From contig NW_003119493.1 in assembly GCF_000003605.2 (NCBI RefSeq), positions 1 through 23,832 on the forward strand: a stretch of 23,832 nt of DNA, given 5' to 3'. Every line of letters starts with the position of its first letter. Positions within the stretch are counted from its first letter, which is position 1. This DNA is from Saccoglossus kowalevskii (taxonomy: Eukaryota > Hemichordata > Enteropneusta > Harrimaniidae). Made by a program: the position numbers and the translations under genes. Shown here piece by piece: positions 1 to 23,832 of this stretch. The notes beneath the pieces were generated by a model. That model was not told the DNA's origin and did no database searches. It saw nothing but the letters and a program-made list of their open reading frames with translations.

Positions 1-135
1 CATCCTACATTGTGTATATCTGACATATTGTCCATCCTACATTTTGTATATCTGACATATTGTCCATCCTACATTGTGTATATCTGACATATTGTCCATC
101 CTACATTTTGTATATCCGACATATTGTCCATCCTA
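1..135. repeat. 32-bp tandem satellite, cut by the left window edge
   Basis: Four full 32-bp units start at 1, 33, 65 and 97, and a 7-bp fifth fragment ends at 135. The unit begins CATCCTACATT and ends GACATATTGTC. Units 1 and 3 read ACATTGTGT where units 2 and 4 read ACATTTTGT, so the array is really a 64-bp dimer. Unit 4 has one further change (ATCCGAC for ATCTGAC). No coding potential is visible. The array continues off the left edge. Confidence 0.93.
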
Positions 136-544
136 GTTCACTTCTATAGCTGTAAATACATTATTCCATTTGTAATAACACAATGAGTTTGCAGGTACAT
201 GTATATTTGATTATTGTGAAAATTGCAATCATTTTGTGGTAATTTGGGATTGACAAGCCAGTGGCAGTGTGCATATTAAACCCAATAGTAAAATGAGTAT
301 TAAGTATTTATTAGACACAACACTGTCTCCAGAGAGATCAGCAATAAGGTCACTAAAATGAGTATAAATTGTGAGAAATGATCAAGGCCTTAAATGCTAA
401 TCTTGAAAACAAATTGTTGTTGACACCTTTCTCTCTTGCTGTTTGCAATCCAAGAATATACGCCACTTGGAACTCAAATTTCAAGGACACGCTCGCGACA
501 ACCCCTCCGCTTTAATATGACGAGCACAAAGAGAACTTAACAGG
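136..544. other. Non-coding stretch, no gene seen
   Basis: AT-rich sequence with scattered stops in all frames and no convincing exon. A small CpG-containing patch near 488-530 (CTCGCGAC, then CCTCCGCTTTAAT) vaguely resembles one end of the inverted-repeat element at 11265-11438, but the match is too short to call. Confidence 0.6.
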
Positions 545-6429: not shown

Positions 6430-7140
6430 GTTCGAACGCAGTCCGAAAACGGGGACTTATGTTTTGACCCTTGTGCATCTGTGCTTCCGTGTGTGCGTCC
6501 AGACCTGTATCTTAGAAATGCCTGGACCAATCATAATCAAACTTCACACATACATCATACATGATATTATACATATGCACATCAATTTGTTCAACGATCT
6601 GATTTAAGATGGCCAAATGGCGGCTATTTTTGTGCTAAAAAATCATTAAAATCAAGCATTTCTCAGCTGTTTACAGATAGATTTTGTTCAAACTTGGTAT
6701 ATACATTAGACATTATGGTACCTTGATGCAAATAATTTAAATTTGTTTTTCAGATAAGATTCAAAATGGACGACTGGCGGCAATTTTGTTTTAATGAATG
6801 TGGTTCTCATGTCATATCTCTGACTTTCTTTGACTGATTATGTTCAAATTTTAAACATTCATTATACATCATGTCATAGATATACAGATATATTGGTTTG
6901 ACGATCCTATTCAAAATGGCCGAATGGTGGCCATTTTCGTGCTAAAAAATCATCAAATATCAAGCATTTATGGTTGGATTTTGTTCAAACTTAAATATAA
7001 CATACATTAGACAATACAGGTTTCTGATGCACATCATTTTATTTTTCAAATCGGATTCAAAATGGCTGACTGGCGGCCATTTTGTTTTAATGATTGGGCT
7101 TCTAGAGCCATACAAATGTATCTCTGACATGCTTTGACTG
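6430..7140 (+). repeat. Interspersed repeat family B, copy 1 (X-Y-X-Y units)
   Basis: Starts CCGAAAACGGGGACTTATG, followed by a GTGTGTGCGTCC stretch and CTGTATCTTAGAAATGCCTG, all shared with the copy at 8706. The body has four ~150-bp units, each with a palindromic core of the type AATGGCGGCCATT (near 6615, 6770, 6920 and 7065). Units 1 and 3 (type X) continue GTGCTAAAAAATC. Units 2 and 4 (type Y) continue GTTTTAATGA and include a CTCTGAC word. All units contain a TTGTTCAAACTT-like word. No coding frame is present. Confidence 0.85.
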
Positions 7141-7156
7141 ATTATCTGTCTTATCC

Positions 7157-8705: not shown

Positions 8706-9545
8706 TTCCGAAAACAGGGACTTATGTTTTGACCTCTGTGTGTGCGTGCGTGCGTCTGTGCGTGCGTCCAAACCTGTATCTTAGAAATGCCTGAATCAAT
8801 CACAATCAAACTTCACACATACATCATACATGATATTATACATATGCACGTCAATTTGTTTCACGATCTGATTCAAGATGGTCGAATGGCGGCCATTTTG
8901 GTGCTAAAAAATCCTTAAAATCAAGTATTTCTCGGCTGTTTACAAATGGATTTTGTTCAAACTTGGTATATACATTAGACATTATAGGACCTTGATGCAC
9001 ATCATTTTATTTTACGATCTGATTCAAGATGGTCGAATGGCGGCCATTTTTTGTGCTAAAAAATCCTAAAAATCAAGCATTTCTCGGCTGTTTATAGATG
9101 GATTTTGTTCAAACTTGGTATATACATTAGACATTATAGGACCTTGATGCACATCATTTTGTTTTACGATCTGATTCAAGATGGTCGAATGGCGGCCATT
9201 TTTGTGCTAAAAAATCCCAAAAATCAAGTATTTCTCGGCTGTTTACAAATGGATTTTGTTCAAACTTGGTATATACATTAGACATTATAGGACCTTGATG
9301 CACATCATTTTGTTTTACGATCTGATTCAAGATGGTCGAATGGCGGCCATTTTTGTGCTAAAAAATCCCAAAAATCAAGCATTTCTCGGCTGTTTACAGA
9401 TGGATTTTGTTCAAACTTGGTATATACCATAGACATTATGGGACCTTGGTGCAAGTAATTTTGTTTTTCAGATAAGATTCAAAATGGCCGACTGGTGGCC
9501 ATTTTGTATTAATGAATGTGGTTCTCGTGCCATATCTCTGACTTG
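8706..9545 (+). repeat. Interspersed repeat family B, copy 2 (X-X-X-X-Y units)
   Basis: The same head as 6430 (GGGACTTATGTTTTGACC, a GTGCGTGCGT-rich segment, GTATCTTAGAAATGCCTG) is followed by four near-identical ~151-bp type X units. GATCTGATTCAAGATGG recurs at 8865, 9016, 9168 and 9319. A single type Y unit closes the element (AAAATGGCCGACTGG, then GTTCTCGTGCCATATCTCTG). The near-identity of the X units here, against alternating X-Y in copy 1, shows that unit number changes within individual copies. Confidence 0.92.
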
Positions 9546-9917
9546 TTTTTTTTAATTTGATATTTTTGCTTCACTGTTTTTCCACCACAATAATTTTGTG
9601 TTATGCATTTTCTTAAAATCATAATCCTCTTCTTATGACATTAGCATGCAAGGTACATGTAAATCATAAGATATGCCAAGGAAACAATTTTGAAAATCTG
9701 GCTTTTAAAATCTGATTTATGACCCCAAGTCTCAAAAGATCATTTTGAAATCTGATATACACATCTGTGGTTGATTGTTATCTGTCTCCCAAAGGAGTAG
9801 GAACAGCACATAGCATGGCACTAATATGACTCTTCTATTAAATGGGTGTCTTCCCTCTGGGTTCTATAAAATGTTCATACTCGATTTGGGGAGTGTTTAA
9901 TTAAAAGTATTTTCAAG
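9546..9917. other. Non-coding stretch, no gene seen
   Basis: AT-rich sequence between the family B repeat and the next inverted-repeat element. No exon, RNA gene or repeat is visible. Confidence 0.55.
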
Positions 9918-10128
9918 TACTGTGAAATACTTTATTTTAGCTGGAATTAATTTTCGCTGAAAAGCGTTTTTGGGTGTTTTCTATGGATTTTATTTTCACT
10001 GATTTCTGATGAGTTGAATGTGAAATATAGAAAAAGGGTATATTCACTGAATTTTATTTTCACCGAATCATTCCTTCTGCGAAAATAGCGAAAATTAGTT
10101 CCAACCAAAAATAAAGTATTTTACAGTA
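9918..10128. mobile_element. Intact TACTGT-end inverted-repeat element, TA flanks (MITE-like)
   Basis: The left end TACTGTGAAATACTTTATTT and its continuation (AGCTGGAATTAATTTTCGC) pair with the reverse complement of the right end (GCGAAAATTAGTTCCAACC, then AATAAAGTATTTTACAGTA). This gives terminal inverted repeats of about 40 bp with few mismatches. If the outer TA is the target duplication, the element proper begins CTGTGAAATAC. A TA target and short non-coding body are typical of non-autonomous Tc1/mariner-type elements, but the superfamily is inferred. Related copies lie at 545-741 and 22752-22893. Confidence 0.88.
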
Positions 10129-10592
10129 TAACTTAAATTACTAATTGCATAACCTGTGCATTTTACAATTACTGGTTATTTTTCATTTTATCATCAGTAA
10201 GCAAATCTTGAATCAGTTGAATTTTATTGAATAAAGCTGAATAATAGTGTTTAACTTGTGTATGTAAAACATAATTCTGCAATCAGCTGTTCACATAAAA
10301 CCTGGTTCTGTAGTGCAAATATTTGTATTCTCTGTTGTTACAAAATACTTGGCAGCAACACCTGAATACACAATTGCATTTGTAATTCCTCATTGAATGT
10401 TAATGCAAGGAATCCTGCTACGAATACTGATGAGTTATCATTAGTACATGTACCTGACACATGCATAAATCTTCCTGGTATAGTATAGCGCAATTTAATA
10501 GGACAGATCATGAATCTTTGCAGCTTGGGTATCCATCTACCCTTTTGCTTATGTCCCACTCTTAACTTTGAAATTTAGAAGTAGTTAACTTA
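10129..10592. other. Non-coding stretch, no gene seen
   Basis: The minus-strand frame at 10338-10559 (73 codons) has no repeat and mixed composition, but no domain is recognised and no splice partners fit. I do not call it. Confidence 0.5.
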
Positions 10593-19522: not shown

Positions 19523-19618
19523 TTTACGCACCAGTGAAACGAACTACTTGAATGAGTCATTCTCATTCTATTCTGCAATCCGTGCTAGAGCGTATTATTC
19601 CAAAGCAAATAAAGAAGG
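19523..19618 (+). CDS. SCAI: SCAI coding exon (second in window)
   Basis: The first base completes the Tyr codon begun at 13325. The exon then reads LRTSETNYLNESFSFYSAIR and ARAYYSKANKE. This continues the SCAI sequence exactly: vertebrate SCAI has LRTSETSYLNEAFSFYSAIR at this point. The aromatic-rich YLNE-FSFYSAIR stretch is a strongly conserved helical segment. The exon ends with GG, two bases of a Gly codon, followed by the donor GTAAGT. Intron phase 2 on both sides. Confidence 0.96.
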
Positions 19619-19632
19619 GTAAGTTCTCTCCT

Positions 19633-20160
19633 CATTATTATTAAAGCCGCAATGAATCTCTCCTGAAATATAAACAAGCATTCAAAAGAATTTACAGTAT
19701 CTACCACTGGGGGCAGTATTCTACAAATACATTCTCATTATTGAAGCTGCAATATATCTCTTGAAATATGAATAAGTACGGATAGTTATGTGCATTCAAA
19801 AGAATTTACAGTATCTACCACTGGGGGCAGTATTCTACAAATACATTTTCATTATTGAAGCTGCGCTGTATCTCTTGTAATATGAAAAAGTAAGGATAGT
19901 TATGTGCATTCAAAAGAATTTACAGTATCTACCACTGGGGGCAGTATTCCACAAATACATTCTCATTTTTGAAGCTGCAATATATCTCTTGAAATATGAA
20001 TAAGTACGGATAGTTATGTGCATTCAAAAGAATTTACAGTATCTACCACTGGGGGCAAAAATACATTTTCATTATTGAAGCTGCGCTGTATCTCTTGTAA
20101 TATGAAAAAGTAAGGATAGTTATGTGCATTCAAAAGAAGTATTCCACAAAAATACATTCC
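19633..20160. repeat. 114-bp tandem array with alternating A/B subtypes
   Basis: TTCAAAAGAA recurs at 19681, 19795, 19909, 20023 and 20129. Spacing is 114 bp, and 106 bp for the last step, where GGGGGCAAAAATAC marks a deletion. Units contain ACAGTATCTACCACTGGGGG. Two versions alternate: A (GCAATATATCTCTTGAAATA, GAATAAGTACGG) and B (GCGCTGTATCTCTTGTAATA, GAAAAAGTAAGG), in the order partial-A-B-A-B. The true repeating block is therefore about 228 bp. The array lies within the SCAI intron between 19619 and 20569. Confidence 0.94.
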
Positions 20161-20569
20161 ATGAGTATTTAAATTGTTCAGTGTATTCGGGTGATGAGTT
20201 TACTTTATTTGTGTTCAATGTTTACCTGTCATGAGTAAAAACTTTCTATGTACAATCATTGATTTTCAATTCATTGACGCACTATGTGTGAAAGGCACAT
20301 TCAAAAATAGAATGATTTGATTCTCAACTTTGAATGTCGAAATTCTGATCTTTCAGAGGGTATTGACATTAAATGTGCAATGACCTTTGTGCGTCTTGTT
20401 TTCACGTTTGATTTCACACATAACACATTTTGCAGTGGACAGAAAATGATATATCAATTTGAATAAATGAATGTATGCACAATTTATTTGACGACCACTT
20501 GTTCTAACGAGAAAGTAGTTCTCGTATTGCTCACTCCTAATCTTCTTGTTGTATTTTTTCATTACTCAG
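20161..20569. other. SCAI intron remainder ending in splice acceptor
   Basis: No repeat or extra exon is seen. The stretch ends in a T-rich tract and ATTACTCAG, the acceptor for the exon at 20570. The minus-strand frame at 20353-20562 has no recognisable product. Confidence 0.6.
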
Positions 20570-20666
20570 GCCGGAACTTTGTGTGAAGAAGTTGAGATAT
20601 TATGCACGGTTTGTGGTGGTGTGTTTGCTACTCAGAAAAATCAGTCTAGTACGGGAACTTATTCAG
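20570..20666 (+). CDS. SCAI: SCAI coding exon (third in window)
   Basis: The first G completes the Gly codon GG|G. The exon then reads PELCVKKLRYYARFVVVCLL followed by LRKISLVRELIQ. The block KKLRYYARF-VVCLLL is diagnostic of SCAI. Vertebrates have an additional residue at the preceding junction (KEDRPEL against KEGPEL here), so the junction loop is one residue shorter. The exon ends in CAG at a codon boundary with the donor GTATGT. The long open frame seen from about 20546 is in a different frame and is a shadow of this exon. Confidence 0.96.
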
Positions 20667-21275
20667 GTATGTTACGCAGTGTTGCTGTTTTCTTTCATAA
20701 CAAGTACAAATTACATAAATGTGATGGGTATTTCTGTTTATTATGATACCTAGAGGTGGTAATAATCCTATAAGAAATCTCACTTCTCTCCCTTTCCTGA
20801 CAGTACATTGGATATCAGTTTGTTTTTTTCATTTTCTTGCATAATTATTAATAGCTGTTCAGTGCTTTGGACTTAAATCTGCGCATGTGCAGATGACGCT
20901 TCAAGAGACATGCAACTGTAGTATTAATGTAAGATTCAAACGTTCATTGGGTGAGAAATTATGTTTTGAATGAGTTTTTACTTCTCTTCTGTTAACAAAG
21001 TTGAGAAGAGCTTTTTGTATTATTGTCACGTGATTTGCCACATCAACTTTACATTTTCAACTTCTTAAAAACTCTCAGCTGTATGGTTTTCATACTCGCA
21101 ATGATAAAAATGTACCTTTGATGGGTCTCTCTCAGATTTATTTATAAGACATACTTTGTATGCCTGTGTTTATCAGACATACTCCTGATACATGTATTTT
21201 TAAGCAAAAACTTATCTCAACCAGTTGTGGTTAATGAGTGCTTTGTCATTTAGCTGTATTTTCTTTTTATGACAG
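20667..21275. other. SCAI intron with a decayed family A repeat
   Basis: The intron runs from GTATGT to TATGACAG. At about 21000-21150 it contains a decayed family A head (listed separately). The rest is AT-rich and featureless. Confidence 0.7.
21000..21150 (+). repeat. Decayed family A repeat head in SCAI intron
   Basis: TTGAGAAGAGCTTTTTGTAT, ACATTTTCAACTTCTT, AAATGTACCTTTGATGGGTC and TCTCTCAGATTTATTTAT follow the same order as the heads at 8363 and 14478. The internal tandem units are absent or unrecognisable. Confidence 0.7.
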
Positions 21276-21374: not shown

Positions 21375-22355
21375 GTATGTATACCATCTATATATACCCG
21401 GTAACCACAGTCATTGCCTTGTGTTCAATATAAGTCCCTTGTGATATATACAACATACATTAAGTATTATTGTTTGTTTGAAATTTGAAATGCTATGTGT
21501 CAACAGCCACTAAAGCTTATTTGAACATTTTGTATAAACCCTTTGAATATCAATATTTTTCCAGTCAGCCAAAATTTTGCACGTTTTTGTGTTTTTTTCT
21601 ATAGTTTCCTTGTTTAATTTTGACCAAGTAGACATGATTTATAATCAGTAATATATTTATTGATCAAAATTTCAACAACAAATAAAAACAATGCTGCTGG
21701 TTTATGTTATGAATGGTGAATGTAATGCACAGATGCTTATTGTGATTACATTGATAACTCTAACTGGCTTGTATTATCAGCTTGTACTTTGGTTGGCACA
21801 AGTTAAACAAAATATGCGCATTTCATTTACTGTCTCTTTCAAGATTGCCATCTGACAGCCTTTGGAGTGCAAAACGATGCACCATAGTCAAGATTTCATT
21901 CAAATTTTGTACATATTTAGAATTTAAGGAATCCTTGATGCACATCATATTTTTTGTAAGGGATCTTGAAAGCTGGCAGCCATTTTGTTTACAATGGTGC
22001 TTTTTCACAGCCATATCTGTGAAATGCTTGAACTAATCACATTCAAATACATACCTAATGCTTGTAAGTGTGAGCTGCACATCCTTAATATTGCTTGGTT
22101 TGGGATGTGAGATGAAAAAAAAACTAATCTTTGATATAAACCATGTGATACTTGCTGCATAAGATAACTTCACTAAAAATGACCTACGTAATAATGGGCG
22201 TGTGTCCATGATCAAACTAAATCCTAAATTTTGTTTTAAATCTTTTCACAATCAGTTCCCTCCCAACTACAAAACAGTAGTAAAAATATGTCATTTTAAC
22301 AATTTCACGATAATGACTTATAATAACGTATTCAGTGATTGTGTTTACATTGCAG
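21375..22355. other. SCAI intron with a diverged family B fragment
   Basis: The intron runs from GTATGT to TTACATTGCAG. Apart from the diverged family B sequence at about 21840-22085 it is AT-rich with no exon. Small frames on both strands at 21782-22036 fall within the repeat. Confidence 0.65.
21840..22085 (+). repeat. Diverged family B repeat fragment
   Basis: ATTCAAATTTTGTACATATT, CTTGATGCACATCAT, then AAGCTGGCAGCCATTTTGTT and GCCATATCTGTGAAATGCTT match the X/Y unit order of the copies at 6430 and 8706 with many substitutions. It is clearly older than those copies. Confidence 0.7.
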
Positions 22356-22508
22356 GCAGAGCAGATAATTAATGTCATAGAGACAGATACCAAACCATTA
22401 GTATTAACACATAGATTAAGTAAAGATGGCGTACCGGCATTGGACAGAGGACAACATGTATATCTTACATTACAAGAAGCACTGATCATTGGCAATTGTA
22501 ATGAACAG
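22356..22508 (+). CDS. SCAI: SCAI coding exon (fifth in window)
   Basis: Fifty-one codons, phase 0 at both ends, from the acceptor TTACATTGCAG to the donor GTAACA. It begins AEQIINVIETDTKPLVLTHR, continues LSKDGVPALDRGQHVYLTLQ and ends EALIIGNCNEQ. The ending LIIGNCN-Q is identical in pattern to vertebrate SCAI (DALIIGNCNNQ), and the N-RL...G.P.L..G spacing also matches. The middle is less conserved, as expected for this part of the protein. An open frame starting at 22335 reads into this exon from the intron and past its donor; the true limits are set by the splice sites. Confidence 0.96.
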
Positions 22509-22751
22509 GTAACAACATCTTATTATGATTATACATCTGGCAGTAAAGACAGTATAATTTAACTGGCAGTGAAAACTCAAGTCAATGCAAAGACACTTAC
22601 AACATTGTGTCTGATTGGCTATCCAACCCTAACACCCAACAATCAGACCAATCAAAGATAAGCTTGTTTGCTAACAGGTTTTTTTAACAAATCAAATTCG
22701 GTCTTGCATATATGCTTTGATACAATTTAAAAAACTCTTGTTCAAGAGTTT
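22509..22751. other. SCAI intron start, no feature called
   Basis: Intronic DNA with a partly self-complementary patch at about 22605-22660 (TCTGATTGG ... CAATCAGACC). No exon is seen. Confidence 0.55.
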
Positions 22752-23519: not shown

Positions 23520-23651
23520 ATTAAATTCAGTGAGTTGACCCTTGACATGTACAGAATATTACAGGCATTAGAAAGAGAACCAAAGGGAGATGACATCCAT
23601 CATCACCACCACCATAACGACTCATCACCTGCACCAGGTCAACAACCAGTG
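23520..23651 (+). CDS. SCAI: SCAI coding exon (sixth in window), with His6 run
   Basis: Forty-four codons, phase 0 at both ends. It opens IKFSELTLDMYRILQALERE followed by P, against vertebrate VKFSELTVDMFRMLQALERE followed by P. After this conserved helix comes a non-conserved linker, KGDDI, six consecutive His codons (23598-23615), NDSSPAPG and QQPV. The same point in vertebrate SCAI is a variable polar linker, so the His run is probably a tolerated lineage-specific insertion. The donor is GTATGT at 23652. The last five codons (GQQPV, 23637-23651) and the donor form the first unit of a 59-bp tandem repeat extending into the intron, so the 5' splice site is present several times. Confidence 0.93.
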
Positions 23652-23832
23652 GTATGTATGGCCTAATATTAATATGCAAATTATTTGTACCACTTGGTCA
23701 ACAACCAGTGGTATGCATGGCCTAATGTTAATATGCAAATTATATGTACCACTTGGTCAACAACCAGTGGTATGTATGGCCTAATATTAATATGCAAATT
23801 ATATGTACCACTTGGTCAACCAGTGGTATGTG
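23637..23832. repeat. 59-bp minisatellite spanning the SCAI exon/intron boundary
   Basis: Units start at 23637, 23696, 23755 and 23814, exactly 59 bp apart. The last is cut by the window edge and lacks three bases (AAC). Each begins GGTCAACAACCAGTGGTATG, which in unit 1 is coding up to 23651 and then the intron donor. Copy 2 has GTATGC instead of GTATGT at the donor. Unit 1 differs from units 2 and 3 at ATTTGTACC against ATATGTACC. Reading through the first donor meets TAA at 23664-23666 (V-C-M-A-stop). Confidence 0.96.

Follow-up and report, generated by a model that had tools for sequence, protein, structure and literature searches.

What happens to splicing when the end of a coding exon and its 5' splice site have themselves become the repeat unit of a minisatellite? 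The question is raised by one complete contig of Saccoglossus kowalevskii, 23,832 bases long and analysed here at its full length (the window), in which a 59-bp tandem array spans the boundary between an exon of SCAI and the following intron and stops exactly at the assembly end. A preliminary description had proposed that the exon end and donor of SCAI are amplified here, and tandem repeat finding (TRF), the PF12070 profile and the reading frame all bear this out.

TRF reports the array at 23637–23831 with a period of 59, 3.4 copies and 94% matches. There are three complete units (23637–23695, 23696–23754 and 23755–23813), which differ from each other at one (units 1 and 3), two (units 2 and 3) or three (units 1 and 2) of the 59 positions; each combines the 15 bases at the SCAI exon end with the 5' splice site and another 38 bases of intron. 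Exon and intron sequence are thus repeated together, and the start of the unit 15 bases inside the coding exon (23637, with the predicted donor at 23652) is as had been proposed. A 27-base string covering the exon end and donor occurs three times at up to 3 mismatches, and is absent from 100 dinucleotide shuffles. The fourth copy is 19 bases long, has a 3-base deletion and ends in the letters GTATGTG, such that the proposed "at least four near-identical copies" are better described as three full units and a shortened edge copy. Because the contig end cuts the array, the units number at least this many, and the final bases of the contig are presumably the least trustworthy. The coordinates of the array and its associated features are collected in Table 1.

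Table 1. Features of the SCAI exons and the 59-bp array. Coordinates are positions in the window, and a slash marks an exon boundary.
Feature	Coordinates	Strand	Evidence and remarks
Preceding SCAI coding exon	22356..22508	+	PF12070 E 2.4e-4, 20.6 bits; ends CAG/GTAACA, phase 0
SCAI coding exon, 44 codons	23520..23651	+	PF12070 E 3e-9, profile 230–252; acceptor TTTACAG/
59-bp minisatellite	23637..23832	+	TRF, repeat finding, contig end; three units and partial fourth
Exonic part of unit 1, GGTCAACAACCAGTG	23637..23651	+	Sequence listing
Donor 1, GTG/GTATGT	23652..23657	+	PWM 2.8, U1 duplex -7.2 kcal/mol; keeps SCAI frame open
In-frame TAA if donor 1 is bypassed	23664..23666	+	Translation
Predicted stem-loop into donor 2, TACCACT...AGTGGTA	23688..23713	+	Fold -13.2 kcal/mol, z -1.68; exact 7-base arms
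Donor copy 2, GTATGC, weaker	23711..23716	+	PWM 1.09, U1 duplex -4.2 kcal/mol
Predicted stem-loop into donor 3	23747..23772	+	Fold -14.2 kcal/mol, z -1.67
Donor copy 3, GTATGT	23770..23775	+	PWM 2.8, U1 duplex -7.2 kcal/mol
Predicted stem-loop into donor 4	23806..23828	+	Fold -13.0 kcal/mol, z -2.44
Donor copy 4, GTATGT, then G at contig end	23826..23831	+	PWM 2.8, U1 duplex -6.1 kcal/mol

The gene is identified as SCAI by exon translations that score over the curated PF12070 cut-off of 25 bits, one of them only with its neighbours: the exon at 22356–22508 alone scores below it, and the match at 22344–22514 (profile 170–231) exceeds it only together with in-frame neighbours. A PF12070 search of the 572-Mb assembly gives seven exon matches, six on this contig and one on scaffold C4454, which span profile positions 14–252 of 529, with the exception of position 75. 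In the exon that carries the array, residues 1–31 match the profile and the remainder is a linker beyond the match; with the repeated exon tail outside the Pfam-matching part, change there could be tolerated. We also note a 114-bp array at 19678–20138 that starts 58 bases past the SCAI exon match at 19524–19619, near, but not on, a predicted splice site.

The 3' half of SCAI (profile 253–529) was not found by the PF12070 search of the 572-Mb assembly, which puts both the right-hand end of the array and the phase of the following exon beyond reach. An assembly search with a human SCAI C-terminal stretch, run without a positive control, gave no match. BLAST searches covered C4454:20001–200000 (180,000 of 331,194 bases, with 151,194 outside); the same stretch gave three protein matches there, at E 2.8 or worse, and the tail sequence, searched for the right flank, gave matches of at most 24 bases, none of them usable. 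A search of solved structures returned 39 matches, all at chance level (E 0.05 or worse) and none named SCAI, and the two alignments shown rest chiefly on a histidine run. Scans of the window for Rfam families and, with the bacterial code, for tRNAs gave no matches.

The four donor copies were compared using a simple position weight matrix (PWM) and a simple U1 energy model. They had been described as identical, and this needs correction, as donor 2 reads GTATGC and forms a U1 duplex of -4.2 kcal/mol versus -7.2 kcal/mol for copies 1 and 3; the value for donor 4 reflects a site shortened by the contig end. Past donor 1 the frame reads ...PGQQPV/VCMA and then stops, with four added codons before the TAA. 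The proposal that a later donor adds codons and an in-frame TAA therefore holds in translation at any copy number, as does its corollary that the first donor alone preserves the SCAI frame, all later donors leading to a premature stop.

As to where the array came from, local tandem duplication appears to be the simplest origin. A DNA search of the array against the whole assembly, in which very common words are skipped, returned self matches alone, with none of the further copies that would mark a dispersed or mobile repeat. The exact core pattern of the unit has three matches in the assembly, all in this array, and the same pattern written backwards has none. In these searches the unit was found nowhere else in the assembly, which favours local duplication.

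Our preferred reading, which we consider probable, is that a locally born minisatellite lies across the SCAI donor, that the first donor is dominant, and that some truncated product is made alongside. Replication slippage or unequal exchange would have multiplied the exon end and donor segment into a tandem row; we infer this process, the choice of donor and the decay of later-donor transcripts. Donor 1 is most likely the source of nearly all SCAI mRNA: it adjoins the coding exon, no other copy outscores it, and it keeps the frame open; with the next SCAI exon missing from the search results, this choice is based on the strength of the splice site and on the frame. Were a later donor used now and then, VCMA and a stop would be added, and such mRNAs would be degraded, or would yield a protein that lacks its C-terminal half, judging from the frame and from what is generally known of nonsense-mediated decay. 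Copy 2, by its poorer U1 match, and copies 2–4, by predicted local hairpins, may be at a disadvantage. The array would then be mostly a passive by-product of a minisatellite-rich genome, and we expect SCAI to be spliced normally for the most part, with a minor share of truncated mRNA. The published analogues from amphioxus, where regular splicing seemed undisturbed, and from human ABCA7, with its retention of one unit at about 2%, are in line with this. Two reports discussed below, the preference for the distal site in CBS 844ins68 and the repeat-keeping transcripts of human duplicated genes, argue against so passive a reading.

Arrays with periods of at least 10 make up 13.0% of the window and 8.7% of the 101,133 called bases among 180,000 sampled from C4454. 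As a yardstick for exons we used the 56 myosin-head matches listed for this genome, which has at least that many, with flanks of up to 200 bases, some of them shorter; one match (L072) is covered in part. An array is present in 11 of 56 myosin pieces and 5.6% of flank bases lie within arrays, and an overlap with the matched coding stretch is seen in none of the 56, the nearest array being 15 bases away (a 72-bp array on C464). The comparison is a rough one, since the limits of a match need not be those of its exon, stops occur in some matches, and conservation is high in myosin exons. Arrays near exons look ordinary in this genome, and an array across a donor less so. The absence of overlaps among the myosin pieces suggests that a boundary array is not routine, and one that is retained might be retained for a reason.

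A rival reading is a splicing rheostat, in which the donors compete, each unit raises the share of truncated and decayed SCAI mRNA, and the number of repeats sets the dose between individuals. The GT is kept at all of the later donors, three of the four donors read GTATGT, and any use of a later donor stops translation after the four added codons. A human precedent is at hand in the variable number tandem repeat (VNTR) of CBS, for which lower enzyme activity is reported with more units (PMC2630376, and the review PMC5188458), and CBS 844ins68 is a documented case in which the distal site of a duplicated junction is used. On the other side, the nearest competitor, donor 2, is weakened, retention of one unit in human ABCA7 is independent of repeat length, and the comparable repeats of amphioxus seemingly leave regular splicing undisturbed. 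Published analogues range from no effect on splicing to falling CBS activity, which makes the rheostat a possible and reasonable hypothesis; we regard it as unlikely, and the idea itself is not new.

A variant holds that the first donor is open while the predicted hairpins mask the others to varying extents, and that variable units tune the decaying share of SCAI mRNA; we consider this quite improbable. Stem-loops are predicted to run into donors 2, 3 and 4 (Table 1), and copy 1, from which the upstream hairpin arm is absent, folds at -10.4 kcal/mol with a z of -0.28. Regulation by a hairpin at a natural donor has been reported for tau exon 10 (PMC6720520). In accessibility calculations, however, donor 1 is the most open in only two of four folding settings, with 9-base and 6-base sites in agreement. 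In the longer fold of 23600–23832 (-71.2 kcal/mol, z -3.31) a downstream arm pairs with donor 1 as well, and hairpins with 7-base arms are not rare in the window, with 52 overlapping listings, three of which lie inside the array. Hairpin masking was for these reasons rejected as a firm explanation, and masking of donors 2–4 is a possibility suggested by folding models. An exact search for the hairpin in prokaryote genome contigs gave no match.

The boundary itself could be placed differently, if the true donor were CAG/GTCAAC at 23638 and the array, starting at the exon end, were wholly intronic. The TRF start at 23637 is one base ahead of that GT, the exon side reads CAG, and the next exon, whose phase would decide the matter, is the one not found in the assembly. 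GTCAAC is nevertheless a poor donor (PWM -0.49 versus 2.8 for GTG/GTATGT), and the SCAI profile match ending at 20666 is followed by CAG/GTATGT, from which it seems that GTATGT donors are used in SCAI. We give the 23638 donor little credence.

A mis-assembly at the contig end, whether it affects the number of units, the short fourth copy or the array as a whole, is very improbable. The contig does end inside the array, and at its opposite end it starts within a 32-bp array that continues in C4454; of the eight N-run edges in the C4454 sample, three are no more than 60 bases from an array. Units 1 and 2 have private differences, though, unlike a simple repetition of one sequence, and arrays are common in this assembly.

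At its left end the contig starts inside the 32-bp array (window 1–135), and C4454:89901–91085 is an array region of about 1.2 kb with several periods, including a 32-bp row at 90424–91085. Window 1–373 corresponds to C4454:90951–91323, directly before a 60,108-base N run (91324–151431), and the sequence suggests that this contig probably belongs in that run, after 91323, although the run may be something other than a plain assembly gap. Elsewhere, window 6473–7145 and 8719–9557 both match C4454 near 20520–21210 at about 74–83% identity, as a dispersed repeat, and the second of these matches sits within a 151/303-bp array (8844–9506). The window has a G+C content of 34.2%, below the approximately 41% of amphioxus.

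That the unit is a mobile or dispersed repeat which landed on the boundary and supplied the last 15 bases of the exon is hardly credible: a 72-bp array beside myosin exons on C464 does have a core of about 27 bases in common with it, followed by a palindrome, and has the highest score of 77 array rows (33, against 22 for the best other row that is unrelated), and ATGCAAATTA occurs eight times outside the array versus 0–3 times in ten shuffles, but random local segments (3000 drawn) score up to 32, and the shared-core pattern has two assembly matches, both the places it was taken from (backwards control 0), so that no new places appear and this origin was rejected. The eight places of ATGCAAATTA, which is part of the unit, lie in C4454:20001–200000, the window and the loci L029–L068, and three are followed by GGTA; longer pieces of the unit, unlike ATGCAAATTA, have no clear enrichment. 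An extension of the repeat further into the exon was also rejected, as 23% of 5000 random 20-mers align to a unit tail no worse than do the 20 bases that precede unit 1. The C464 array, with the palindromic core ACCATATATGGT, is present at 9408–9546 and 10258–10425 (L031 and L054), near both ends of the interval between two myosin exon matches, and is perhaps one array filling much of an intron (9547–10239 lying between the sampled parts).

The SCAI array is a real boundary-spanning minisatellite, and this kind of feature is already known. Among the papers listed in searches of one open library, with limited SCAI-specific coverage, none reports such an array in SCAI. SCAI thereby becomes one of a small number of genes in which a minisatellite spans a splice donor, and the animal genome concerned is rich in arrays. 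If the number of repeats varies and splicing follows it, the array would offer a natural series for studying how the spliceosome selects one of several near-identical donors; should the additional donors be ignored, it would be further evidence that the choice of an exon-proximal donor can be robust.

The human CBS VNTR has a 31-bp unit and is named c.1444_1467+7(16_21) in PMC2630376, a name that we read as 24 exonic and 7 intronic bases repeated, and thus as exon end and donor together, as in SCAI. A table in PMC1395315 places it at exon 13–intron 13, and PMC5188458 calls it non-coding at the boundary between exon 13 and intron 13, a description that agrees only partly with the name. It differs from the SCAI array in its unit length, in its 16–21 copies, in having variation between persons shown, and in its gene and organism. 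In CBS 844ins68, a 68-bp duplicated junction, the more distal site is strongly favoured according to PMC2630376, which argues against a simple rule by which the first site wins.

In human ABCA7 the first two bases of a 25-bp unit in the intron 18 VNTR are the exon 18 donor, and use of the next donor retains one unit and leads to a premature stop; as we read PMC5954066, this retention is about 2% and independent of length, the effect of length being the skipping of the next exon. The repeated donor and the premature stop after use of the next donor are shared with the SCAI array, whereas the ABCA7 unit begins at the GT, has no exonic bases and is repeated about 12 to 427 times. De Grassi and Ciccarelli (2009; PMC2812944) describe minisatellites at human exon–intron boundaries that can give alternative introns, and in 66% of the intron changes linked to boundary repeats in human duplicated genes there are also transcripts that keep the repeat. 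Unlike SCAI, these cases are recent human paralogues in segmental duplications.

Similar in form are the "mirages" of amphioxus, minisatellite-like repeats across exon–intron boundaries with units of 10–160 bp, which occur in Adh3, the globins BflGb6 and BflGb9, TnC and PGBD5, the last of these in a lancelet (PMC3087553 and PMC3902484). In BflGb9 it is the 3' boundary of an exon that is duplicated. According to PMC3087553, no effect on regular splicing was seen for the Adh3 and globin mirages, and according to PMC3902484 no aberrant mRNAs arise from the splice sites that are duplicated in the mirages of Adh and TnC. Transcripts of the mirages have been checked and instability in length is reported, whereas the SCAI array is known from the sequence of one assembly; in structure the two are alike, as minisatellite-like tandem repeats that span an exon–intron boundary.
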